46,776 bases of DNA, from positions 1 through 46,776 of the forward strand of contig NZ_JAUOSB010000020.1 of NCBI RefSeq assembly GCF_030548295.1, read 5' to 3'. Positions 3-40,500 of this stretch are shown in pieces (positions within the stretch are counted from its first letter, which is position 1; each line of letters begins with the position of its first letter). The stretch comes from Wenyingzhuangia sp. 2_MG-2023 (GTDB lineage Bacteria > Bacteroidota > Bacteroidia > Flavobacteriales > Flavobacteriaceae). Position numbers and translations under genes: made by a program. Below the pieces are notes generated by a model that saw only the letters and a program-made list of their open reading frames with translations, was not told the origin of the DNA and did not search any database.

Positions 3-75
3 TGACCGGGCTGGGGCTCGAACCCAGGACCCTCTCCTTAAAAGGGAGATGCTCTACCAACTGAGCTACCAGGTC
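3..75 (-). tRNA. tRNA-Lys (anticodon TTT), copy 1
   Basis: The reverse complement folds as a 73-nt class I tRNA. The acceptor arm GACCTGG pairs with CCCGGTC, the D-loop has the AGCTCAGTTGGTAGAGC core, the anticodon loop is CTTTTAA (anticodon TTT, Lys) and the T-loop is GGTTCGAGCC. The discriminator is A and the 3' CCA is not encoded. It is identical in sequence to the copy at 194..266. Confidence 0.96.
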
Positions 76-80
76 GTCCG

Positions 81-162
81 TGGTGAGAGAAGGATTCGAA
101 CCTTCGAAGACGTAGTCAGCGGATTTACAGTCCGCCCTCGTTGGCCACTTGAGTATCTCACC
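81..162 (-). tRNA. tRNA-Tyr (anticodon GTA)
   Basis: An 82-nt class II tRNA on the minus strand. The acceptor arm GGTGAGA pairs with TCTCACC, the anticodon loop is CTGTAAA (anticodon GTA), there is a long variable arm typical of tRNA-Tyr, and the T-loop is GGTTCGAATCC. The discriminator is A and CCA is not encoded. It lies between two identical tRNA-Lys genes, probably in one transcript. Confidence 0.96.
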
Positions 163-193
163 ATGCAATAACTACTGTTATACTGTAACTTTG

Positions 194-266
194 TGACCGG
201 GCTGGGGCTCGAACCCAGGACCCTCTCCTTAAAAGGGAGATGCTCTACCAACTGAGCTACCAGGTC
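194..266 (-). tRNA. tRNA-Lys (anticodon TTT), copy 2
   Basis: Identical over all 73 nt to the tRNA-Lys at 3..75, with the same TTT anticodon and no encoded CCA. It would be the promoter-proximal gene of the Lys-Tyr-Lys cluster on the minus strand. Confidence 0.96.
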
Positions 267-3648: not shown

Positions 3649-3683
3649 TCTTAAACAATCTAACAACATAACTCAAAATCAAA

Positions 3684-3797
3684 CTTCTCGATACTAATTT
3701 TATCCACTGCGTTTCTAAAATTCACTCGAAGTGACAACAATCTCAGTTCGAGTGCGATTTATGGAAGAGAAACGAAAATAAAACGTGTATCGAGAAC
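3684..3797. repeat. Isolated inverted-repeat unit of the TTCGAGTG/TATCGAGAA family (B-A order)
   Basis: A single copy of the repeat that forms the large array at 37839..40497, but in the order B arm then A arm. It starts at CTTCTCGATACTA, has the junction CACTCGAAGTGACA...CTCAGTTCGAGTG (hairpin-forming) and ends at GTGTATCGAGAAC. The cores are the same as in the array: TTTTAGAA-type in B, AACGAAAATAAAACG in A. It lies between the pafA terminator and the LysM gene, outside any gene. Confidence 0.9.
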
Positions 3798-3865
3798 AAT
3801 GTTAGTTCAATTTCTATGATAAAAAATCATTATCTTCCCATAGTTAATCTAAAAATCAACAAACT

Positions 3866-37684: not shown

Positions 37685-38314
37685 TTTTCACTCTATTGTT
37701 GGTGACTATTTTCAGATCCAAACGCTCCCAAAAAGTGCAAAATCCTAAACACTCGTTAATTTCTTTCAACGAAGTTACAGATACAGGTACAACCACAGGT
37801 GCATGTTTGTGTTTTTCAACCTTTCCTAATGTAAAAAATGTCAGTTCGAGTGCGATTTGTTGAAGGGAAACGAAAATAAAACGTGTATCGAGAACTTTGT
37901 TGTATTGAACACTCCAATGACATTAAACTTCTCGATACTAATTTCATCCACTACGCTCCTAAAATTCACTCGAAGTGACAATAAAATGTCAGTTCGAGTG
38001 CGGTTTGTTGGAGTGAAACGTAAATGAATCGTGTATCGAGAACTTTGTTGTATTGAATACCCCAACAACATTAGCTAAACAATTAAACTTCTCGATACTA
38101 ATTGTATCCGCTACACTCCTAAAATTCACTCGAAGTAACAACAACCATACTGTCAGTTCGAGTGCGGTTTGTTGAAGTGAAACGAAAACAAAGCATGTAT
38201 CGAGAACCTTGTTGTATTGAACACCCCAACAACATTAGCTAAACAATTAAACTTCTCGATACTAATTTCATCCACTGCGTTCCTAAAATTCACTCGAAGT
38301 GACAACAACCATAC

Positions 38315-38761
38315 TGTCAGTTCGAGTGCGGTTTGTTGGAGAAAAACGAAAATAAAGCGTGTATCGAGAACCATATTTTATATGGGTTAGAATTTGTATC
38401 TTGAAGACTGCTATGATATATTATGTTTACATTTTACTTTGTGCTGATAAAACTTATTATACGGGTATTACCAATAATTTAACAAGAAGATTAAAAGAAC
38501 ATGAAAGCGGAAAATATTTTAATAGTTACACCTCCAATAGACTGCCTATTTCTCTAGCCTACTACGCTACTTTTACAAATGTAGAAGTTGCTATCTCAAC
38601 AGAGAAACAAATAAAAAAATGGTCTAAAGCTAAAAAAGAGGCTCTCATAAATAATGAATTTGAAAAGCTACCTAATTTAGCGAAAAAAATATTTTAACCA
38701 TACAAACACTTCTCGATACTAATTGTATCCGCTACGCTTCTAAAATTCACTCGAAGTGACA
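38315..38761. mobile_element. Arm-GIY-YIG-arm unit: candidate autonomous element
   Basis: The A arm (38315-38372), a 336-nt segment with a complete GIY-YIG gene, then the B arm (38709-38761). In every other full-length unit the segment between the arms is a ~31-46-nt loop; here that loop is replaced, not merely split, as no loop sequence remains. The gene starts 41 nt after the A arm and stops 11 nt before the B arm. The arms are typical of the array. Reading this as an element with a self-encoded nuclease is inference. Confidence 0.55.
38413..38697 (+). CDS. GIY-YIG endonuclease, single domain (UPF0213-like)
   Basis: 94 residues from the ATG at 38413. One GIY-YIG nuclease domain: GIY strand YYVYILLC (Tyr6), YIG strand YYTGITNN (Tyr16, Gly18), the helix LTRRLKEH (Arg26, His30), and the catalytic Glu64 in AISTEKQIKKW. 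A KYFNSYTSNRLP loop is typical of the abundant single-domain Bacteroidota forms. The catalytic set is intact. A GTG at 38359 would add 18 residues read from the repeat (MYREPYF-), so it is rejected as start. It has no additional DNA-binding domain. It lies in the loop of a repeat unit; no other gene is within 900 bp. Confidence 0.93.
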   Translation: MIYYVYILLCADKTYYTGITNNLTRRLKEHESGKYFNSYTSNRLPISLAYYATFTNVEVAISTEKQIKKWSKAKKEALINNEFEKLPNLAKKIF

Positions 38762-40500
38762 ACACTACTGTCAGTTCGAGTACGGTTTGTTGAAGTGGAA
38801 CGAAAATAAAACGTGTATCTAGAACCTTGCTATCTTGATCACCCCTAAAAAATTAAACTTCTCGATACTAATTTCATGCGCTACGCTTCTAAAATTCACT
38901 CGAAGTGACAATAATACTGTCAGTTCGAGTGCGGTTTGTTGAAGTGAAACGTAAATAAAGCGCGTATCGAGAACCTTGCTATCTTAAACACAACAATAAC
39001 ATTAAACTTCTCGATACTAATTGTATCCACTATGTTCCTAAAATTCACTCGAAGTGACAACCATACTGTCAGTTCAAGTGCAGTTTATTGAAGTGGAACG
39101 AAAATAAATCGTGTATCGAGAACCTTGCTATCTTGAACACTCCAAAAACATTAAACTTCTCGATAATAATTTCATCCATTACGTTTCTAAAATTCACTCG
39201 AAGTGACAACCATACTGTCAGTTCGAATGCGGTTTGTTGAAGTGAAACGAAAATAAAAAGTGTATCCGCTACGTTCTCAAAATTCACTCGAAGTGACAAT
39301 ACTACTGTCAGTTCGAGTGCAGTTTATTGAAGTGGAACGAAAATAAAGTGTGTATCGAGAACTTTGCTATCTTGAACACTCCAATAACATTAAACTTCTC
39401 GATACTAATTTTATCCGCTACGTTCTCAAAATTCACTCGAAGTGACAATACTACTGTCAGTTCGAGTGCGGTCTTATTGTAGTGAAACGAAAACAAAGCG
39501 TGTATCGAGAACCTTGCTATCTTGAACACTCCAATAGCATTAAACTTCTCGATACTAATTTCATCCGCTACGCTTCTAAAATTCATTCGAAGTGACAACA
39601 CAACTGTCAGTTCAAGTGCGGTTTGTTAAAGTGAAACGAAAATAAAGCGTGTATCGAGAACCTTGCTATCTTGAACACTCCAATAGCATTAAACTTCTCG
39701 ATACTAATTTTATCCACTACGCTGCTAAAATTCACTCGAAGTGACAACAATACTGTCAGTTCGAGTGCGGTTTATTAAAGTGTAACCAAAATAAAACATG
39801 TATCCACTACGCTTCTAAAATTCACTCGAAGTGACAACAATACTGTCAATTCGAGTGCGATTTATTGAAGTGAAACGAAAATAAAGTGTGTATCGAGAAC
39901 CTTGCTATCTTGAACACTCCAATAACTTTAAACTTCTCGATACTAATTTCATCCGCTAAGCTTCTAAAATTCACTCGAAGTGACAACACTACTGTCAGTT
40001 CGAGTGCGGTTTGCTGAAGTGGAACGAAAATAAAGCGTGTATCGAGAACCTTGCTATCTTGAACACTCCAATAGCATTAAACTTCTCGATACTAATTTCA
40101 TCCGCTACATTCCTGAAATTCACTCGAAGTGACAACCATGTCAGTTCGAGTGCCGTTTGTTGAAGTGAAACGAAAACAAAGTGTGTATCGAGAACTTTGC
40201 TATCTTGAACACCACAAAAAACATTAAACTTCTCGATACTAATTTTATCCGCTACGCTGCTAAAATTCACTCGAAGTGACAATACTACTGACAGTTCGAG
40301 TGCGGTTTGTTGAAGTGGAACGAAAATAAATCGTGTATCGAGAAACTTGCTATCTTGAACACTCCAATAGCATTAAACTTCTCGATACTAATTTTATCCA
40401 CTACATTCCTGAAATTCACTCGAAGTGACAATACTACTGTCAGTTCGAGTGCGATTTGTTGAAGTGGAACGAAAATAAAAAGTGTATCGAGATACCGTAC

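Follow-up and report, generated by a model that had tools for sequence, protein, structure and literature searches.

Single-domain GIY-YIG nuclease genes bordered by tagged palindromes: candidate enzymes of a REP-like element

Minimal GIY-YIG genes are found between tagged, hairpin-forming repeats in several groups of bacteria; the anatomy of the gene-bearing unit, its enrichment over control genes, the matching of nuclease clade and repeat type, the joint presence of the two across genomes and the presence or absence of the element at one conserved locus are all shown in the following. A REP-like element driven by a GIY-YIG nuclease is the explanation of these data that we favour, with moderate confidence, the substrate, the cleavage and the copying route being inferred; indeed, no nuclease activity, excision or insertion has been observed.

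The window, i.e. the whole stretch of 46,776 nucleotides of Wenyingzhuangia sp. 2_MG-2023 that was analysed, contains at approximately 37,839-40,500 an array of repeats that is far above chance expectation. The features discussed here are as follows.

37839..40500, + strand: REP-like dimer array of 17 units with alternating A and B arms, period about 149 nt, some units being of 164 and 90 nt
38318..38760, + strand: unit 4, the gene-bearing form (A arm, leader, GIY-YIG gene, B arm)
38315..38370, + strand: A arm of unit 4, the TGTCA tag followed by TTCGAGTG...GTATCGAGAA
38371..38412, + strand: gene leader in unit 4, resembling the loop of gene-less units
38413..38697, + strand: GIY-YIG nuclease gene, 94 aa, with the ATG start at 38,413 and the stop ending at 38,697
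38710..38760, - strand: B arm of unit 4, a reverse-complement arm with the tag pointing outward
3678..3803, + strand: solitary gene-less unit, with B arm, short spacer and A arm in that order

A and B are two distinct arms of opposite orientation that alternate along the array, with 17 A-arm starts and 16 B-arm ends, and such an opposite-orientation pair is known in the literature as a REP dimer or REPIN (PMC3116915, PMC3733652). The original prediction, made from the letters of the window, was that an intact GIY-YIG gene fills the loop between the normal A and B arms of the fourth unit, and both the gene and the normal arms are confirmed; the loop, given as 336 nt, is corrected to 339 nt. The 15 other full units that had been counted were not recovered: apart from unit 4, the array consists of 13 full gene-less units (loops of 34-46 nt), two internally deleted ones of 90 nt each (units 8 and 12) and a partial one (unit 17). 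Three tRNA genes are found at the start of the contig (window positions 3-266, minus strand).

The leader of unit 4 and the first bases of its gene, TTGTATCTTGAAGACTGCTAT, match TTGCTATCTTGAACACTCCAAT, the loop sequence of the units without a gene, which is what a common origin of leader and loop would predict; in the comparison with unit 9 none of 500 mononucleotide shuffles equalled the match, and a repeat test gave p 0.004. The same leader-loop test yielded a p-value for 20 loci, four of which were excluded because of another arm in the leader; p<0.01 was obtained in only 2 of the 16 testable loci, the window included, and p 0.02-0.05 in two more. Thus, the idea that gene-less units are generally deletion products is weakly supported, and their descent from a gene-bearing unit, which had also been predicted, remains a possibility inferred from sequence alone, with support in the window and little elsewhere.

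The protein encoded in unit 4 is a member of the GIY-YIG superfamily by Pfam score (57.1 bits against PF01541, the curated cut-off being 22.6) and by catalytic residues, nuclease activity being inferred. No other family is matched, the T5orf172 match falling below its own cut-off. The GIY-YIG catalytic set consists of Tyr, Tyr, Arg, His and Glu. The predicted Tyr6, Arg26, His30 and Glu64 are present, along with Tyr16, and all five are invariant in a diverse 12-sequence alignment and in one of 28 sequences. With the predicted structure (mean pLDDT 80.9), the best matches among solved structures are two UPF0213 proteins (E<=4.1e-4), followed by nine Slx1 chains with marginal E-values (0.013-0.05) and TM scores of 0.52-0.59; the latter make up nine of the eleven best matches, and their PDB titles name branched-DNA substrates.

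The genome from which the window derives (3.98 Mb, the window being contig C111) contains four PF01541 matches, one of which, inside a 600-aa frame, we take to be UvrC, judging by length. The remaining three, all single-domain, are repeat-bordered, each with its own inverted repeat. Besides the window gene, they comprise a gene within an array of a different repeat, TTCGAGCGCAGTCGAGAA (contig C177), and a gene interrupted by an internal TAA and flanked by TCCTGAACTTGTTTCAGGA-type palindromes (contig C178), between genes that we take, by eye, to be hisC and hisB.

Whether such bordering exceeds that of other genes was evaluated in two samples, one of 85 unique single-domain GIY-YIG genes from 60 related genomes, 82 of which had long enough flanks, and one of 80 named loci with 85 GIY-YIG matches, 82 of which were used. 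In a strict test, requiring a spanning-inverted-repeat score >=12 on 100-nt flanks, 25/82 GIY-YIG genes passed in the first sample versus 10/409 neighbouring genes (Fisher 6e-14; mispaired flanks 1.8%), and 25/82 versus 7/502 genes in the second (2e-17). The higher rate of passing mispaired flanks in the second sample (9.6%) is probably due to the sharing of one repeat type by many loci. The strict test overlooks true cases, the window gene among them; with a looser test for tagged hairpins on both sides, 42/148 GIY-YIG and 53/765 control genes passed (5e-12). In that scan the contrast between two roughly split subfamilies was small (33/100 versus 9/48 for both sides), owing to likely members that the splitting rule had put in the wrong group, and a tree was used instead. 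When the search was limited to the signature set of the window clade, allowing one mismatch per box, a TTCGAGT..TATCGAGAA arm was found within 200 nt on both sides of 14 of the 15 genes. Elsewhere, palindromes with a [C/T]GTC tag often border the GIY-YIG genes. The check that had been proposed, namely that genes of the subfamily should be bordered by arms far above other genes, is therefore passed in both samples. Other nuclease clades reside at other tagged palindromes.

Repeat type follows nuclease clade. When typed with eight motifs sought within 300 nt of the gene, 101 of 192 genes could be labelled, the other 91 having none of the eight in that distance, and the changes of repeat type on the nuclease tree numbered 12, versus 48-53 in the ten shuffles printed out of 50. 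Nearly all typed genes belong to two large clusters (127 and 40 genes); the 12 other listed clusters, with 21 genes, include a single typed one. A comparison of flanks for 137 unique genes (after removal of duplicates, short proteins and short flanks) points the same way, with near-flank similarity in 46% of the pairs at 60-70% nuclease identity and in <1% of those below 45%. By the Mantel test, nuclease identity correlates with flank similarity with r 0.53 for near flanks and r 0.10 at 1.15-1.4 kb; the far-flank control is weak yet also significant (p 0.001 in both cases). Another set of single-domain GIY-YIG genes, most of which have no typed repeat and some of which occur in tandem copies, lies near tRNA genes in 13 of 16 scanned loci (L052, L066, L068, L078, L095, L096, L098, L099, L110, L116, L119, L120 and L132); in L068, L095 and L096 there is a normal tRNA on one side of the gene and, on the other, an odd one called tRNA-SeC by ARAGORN. 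This group appears to be a tRNA-targeting element.

Repeat and nuclease also occur together across genomes, which are related and, hence, not independent counts. The pattern TTCGAGTN{5,35}TATCGAGAA is present in 45 copies in the genome of the window, 24 of them in the array, with none for the reversed control. In the first set of 60 related genomes, a window-clade gene is listed for 10, all of them with 4-61 repeats, and 8 of the remaining 50 carry at least 4; the gene listing of this set is incomplete, so that absence of the clade from it is no proof. In a second, Chryseobacterium-like genus (60 genomes, with a 100% match to a piece of Chryseobacterium sp. Leaf405 among them), genes from eight genomes fall into the window clade on the tree (support 0.94), and the E-value limit selects the same eight genomes, although without a real gap (1.4e-41 vs 3.4e-41). 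All eight carry 17-61 repeats; among the 52 others, 41 have none, three have one or two and eight have at least 10. Within the 30 loci fetched from this genus, the 8 window-clade genes all lie at most 300 nt from an arm, 6 of them having one on each side; no window-type arm was found within 300 nt in the other 22, and several of the latter adjoin TGTCACCCTGAGCTTGTCGAAGG-type repeats. As for clade B, the genomes with its genes contain B-type repeats in 31 (G000), 13 (G002), 16 (G004) and 43 copies (G006), G006 having two clade-B genes and no A-type repeat; G020 has two copies, G001 and G003 have 12 each with no listed gene, and no other genome exceeds 5. Repeats without a listed nuclease, as in G001 and G003, imply that the repeats can outlive or lack the enzyme.

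Allowing for some variation, the arms of the window read TGTCA-N-TTCGAGT-[variable interior]-TATCGAGAA. In 70% of 270 distinct arm interiors, taken from the fetched loci, all six outer pairs are formed, and the mean number of pairs among those six is 5.57, as compared with 4.14 for shuffles and 4.94 for chimeras of the same length. The interiors thus pair better than either control, so that the hairpin is kept while its letters change; the pattern used for related arms was limited to interiors of 8-35 nt, and these vary widely. A uniform orientation of the arms with the tag outward was tested and does not hold: the nearest arm has its tag outward upstream in 12/15 and downstream in 7/14 cases of the window-clade signature set, and in only 2/7 and 1/7, respectively, in the second genus. 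Fixed terminal inverted repeats are, therefore, too simple a description, and insertion into arrays and recombination within them must contribute. In one locus (L240 of G004, positions 804 and 3726 of the reverse complement) the arms are hybrid: TTCGAGTG...TGTATCGAGAA boxes enclose the CCTGAACTTGTTTCAGG palindrome, or a close variant of it, which is otherwise seen next to a different nuclease clade.

The association reaches plasmids and distant hosts. When one such protein was used as tblastn query against plasmid records, 32 of them matched, and in 11 of the 14 loci examined tagged palindromes were recognized by eye on both sides of the gene; L309 and L316 have the downstream palindrome only, and L308, where the frame runs on, was left unscored downstream. 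Bordered loci include those of Azospirillum lipoferum, Novosphingobium aromaticivorans, Sinorhizobium meliloti, Shinella, Sphingobium, Planktothrix and Spirosoma. In the Planktothrix plasmid (L313) the REP-bordered gene has a type IIL restriction enzyme gene on one side and DISARM drmA on the other.

Presence and absence at a conserved site are seen with A. lipoferum 4B, where sufB and sufC are separated by the GIY-YIG gene with a repeat dimer on either side of it. Just 63-65% of this sufB-sufC query is matched in 11 other listed Azospirillum records, and the six relatives that were fetched have a short sufB-sufC spacer with no GIY-YIG gene and no CGTC-tagged repeat, the matched flanks being 95-97% identical in three of them; the spacer of strain B510 has a different, untagged palindrome. 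The left half of the spacer is not conserved and, therefore, the border of the insertion cannot be placed to the base. A REP-bordered GIY-YIG gene is found at the same sufB-sufC place in Shinella (L318), an alphaproteobacterium distant from Azospirillum (L315); L318 is unannotated, its suf genes being inferred from the blastn match to L315.

The hisC-hisB spacer, read by eye in seven genomes of the genus of the window, contains the interrupted gene in G000, an intact one in G005, one arm in G002 and neither gene nor arm in G001, G003, G004 and G006; since these spacers cannot be aligned, the locus was rejected as a clean empty site. The array locus is flanked differently in G002, G004 and G006, and the LysM-like gene beside the solitary unit has no match in G001-G006. 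At the alaS locus of the Chryseobacterium-like genus (gene read by eye; 59/60 genomes matched), 5 of the 30 fetched loci have at least two exact arms on each strand and one has a single arm, and in several loci decayed arm traces are seen just beyond the terminator. No target-site duplication was found, the hisC-hisB, alaS and sufB-sufC spacers aligning too poorly for base-exact borders; the comparison of orthologous loci that had been suggested for defining insertion borders thus delivers presence and absence (A. lipoferum sufB-sufC) without exact borders. The same nuclease clade also occupies different sites, as in L159 and L160.

In the reading that we prefer, unit 4 would be the enzyme-carrying form of a REP-like element in which a minimal GIY-YIG gene is enclosed by two tagged hairpin repeats, and the gene-less units would be its REPIN-like, non-autonomous partners. 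The nuclease most probably recognizes the folded repeat (a single-stranded DNA hairpin or a cruciform) together with the conserved boxes, and would cut or nick beside it, much as branched DNA is cut by its predicted structural relative Slx1. Repeat units would then be copied to new sites and into tandem arrays by repair, or by replication restart, from another copy, and the GIY-YIG gene may now and then be copied along with them. A stand-alone nuclease domain beside repeats in which the hairpin is kept would fit a mechanism in which REP hairpins or cruciforms are cut structure-selectively and are then copied from another repeat. The original prediction that arm-GIY-YIG-arm is the autonomous form, driven by a GIY-YIG nuclease rather than a Y1 transposase, is accordingly supported as far as association goes: movement catalysed by the nuclease is inferred, and a Y1 transposase elsewhere in the genome is not ruled out. 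Its core idea appears to be right, and the association is wider than proposed, reaching beyond Bacteroidota.

The rival that survives best, and which remains possible, is that of a homing-type parasite, in which the nuclease gene invades existing REPs used as recognition and landing sites, and the repeats are made by another activity (e.g. replication slippage, recombination or an unseen transposase). Classic homing nucleases belong to the GIY-YIG family. In favour of this view, the repeats can exist without the gene, the matching of clade and repeat is equally expected if a nuclease targets its own repeat, and the non-uniform arm orientation is compatible with insertion at varying positions in an array. 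Against it, 41 of the 52 same-genus genomes without the window clade have no such repeat, and in A. lipoferum gene and repeats occupy a spacer that has neither in the relatives examined.

Less likely is host housekeeping, by which a tamed nuclease would trim or resolve REP cruciforms and stabilize repeat-rich DNA without spreading the repeats. The Slx1-like predicted fold speaks for it, as do seven Chryseobacterium-like loci (L293-L297, L300 and L301), in which the GIY-YIG gene has one upstream repeat, TGTCAGGCTGAGC...GAAGCC, and is followed by seemingly the same gene start, suggesting a fixed, possibly tamed copy. However, the gene is patchy in the genus (31/60 genomes at E<=1e-18, several clades together) and found at different sites in related genomes, one copy is interrupted (C178), and tandem copies occur: L128 (G019, contig C15) has two genes for an identical protein about 1 kb apart in one array, and in L113 (G025, contig C20) a full frame stands in tandem with two short frames related to it. 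Passive association, i.e. the chance meeting of REPs that crowd intergenic space with small mobile genes landing there, finds support only in control genes of repeat-rich loci sometimes passing the loose test (53/765) and is very unlikely in the light of the strict-test enrichment over neighbours in the same loci, the clade-specific repeat types and the nearly flat far-flank control.

If the GIY-YIG-driven element is real, a large group of single-domain GIY-YIG genes would acquire a function, and there would be mobile DNA driven by a nuclease alone. A bolder reading, for and against which we see the balance as even, is that small GIY-YIG nucleases are the missing enzymes of non-GTAG REPs and represent a second kind of REP mobilization, in which a structure-selective nuclease unrelated to the RAYTs, with no transposase, would spread hairpin repeats; its scope here is Bacteroidota, Alphaproteobacteria and one cyanobacterium. 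In the literature searched no paper tied GIY-YIG or UPF0213 proteins to REPs, preprints and most subscription journals being outside the scope, so that a prior report is not excluded; passages of a 2025 REP survey lack any word that starts with nuclease, GIY, RAYT or transposase (PMC12306157).

Among known systems, GIY-YIG homing endonucleases share the catalytic domain and the behaviour of mobile genes, which are general traits of that family, but differ in that here no intron or intein is seen, there is no extra DNA-binding domain and the borders are repeats; nor is there one conserved cognate site, as homing would require, the sites being varied within a clade. Slx1 is similar in predicted fold, with marginal E-values, but works with Slx4 (PDB titles), whereas here a stand-alone 94-aa domain is linked to repeats. 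The closest analogues in organization are the RAYT/TnpA-REP systems (REPtrons) with their GTAG REPs and REPINs, in which likewise one enzyme gene is bordered by tagged palindromes, gene-less inverted doublets are found, and enzyme and repeat co-vary (PMC8266576, PMC3116915). Their enzyme is an HUH/Y1 transposase and their tag GTAG, as opposed to a GIY-YIG nuclease and TGTC/CGTC (the array arms beginning with TGTCA). A REP with a dedicated enzyme is, thus, a known arrangement and the class of enzyme is new; a categorically new kind of mobilization is conceivable, and to claim it the activity would have to be shown.

The repeats themselves are best compared with the CGTC-tagged REPs, which consist of a CGTC, TGTC or CCTC tag, a palindrome and a short tail, occur in opposite-orientation pairs and include four families with an 8-9 bp stem and a 4-5 nt loop; in the survey of Di Nocera (2013) they were apparently without a dedicated transposase, and the mobilizer was left to future work (PMC3733652). 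The tag is as required, with TGTCA before TTCGAGTG in the array and CGTC or CCTC in the alphaproteobacterial loci (by eye), and the alternating A and B arms meet the criterion of opposite-orientation dimers. The stem and loop sizes do not agree, the boxes of the window arms being some 30-35 nt apart and the stems imperfect, and because of these long, variable interiors we file them as REP-like, outside the four CGTC families; the A. lipoferum arms look typical by eye. A. lipoferum, S. meliloti and N. aromaticivorans, listed as hosts of CGTC-tagged REPs (PMC3733652), have a REP-bordered GIY-YIG gene here. The best candidate enzymes for CGTC-tagged REPs are, in our view, single-domain GIY-YIG nucleases, their cutting and copying being inferred. 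Tagged palindromes of this kind have been reported from several phyla, and naming a clade-matched 94-aa enzyme makes the question of their mobilizer testable at the bench.
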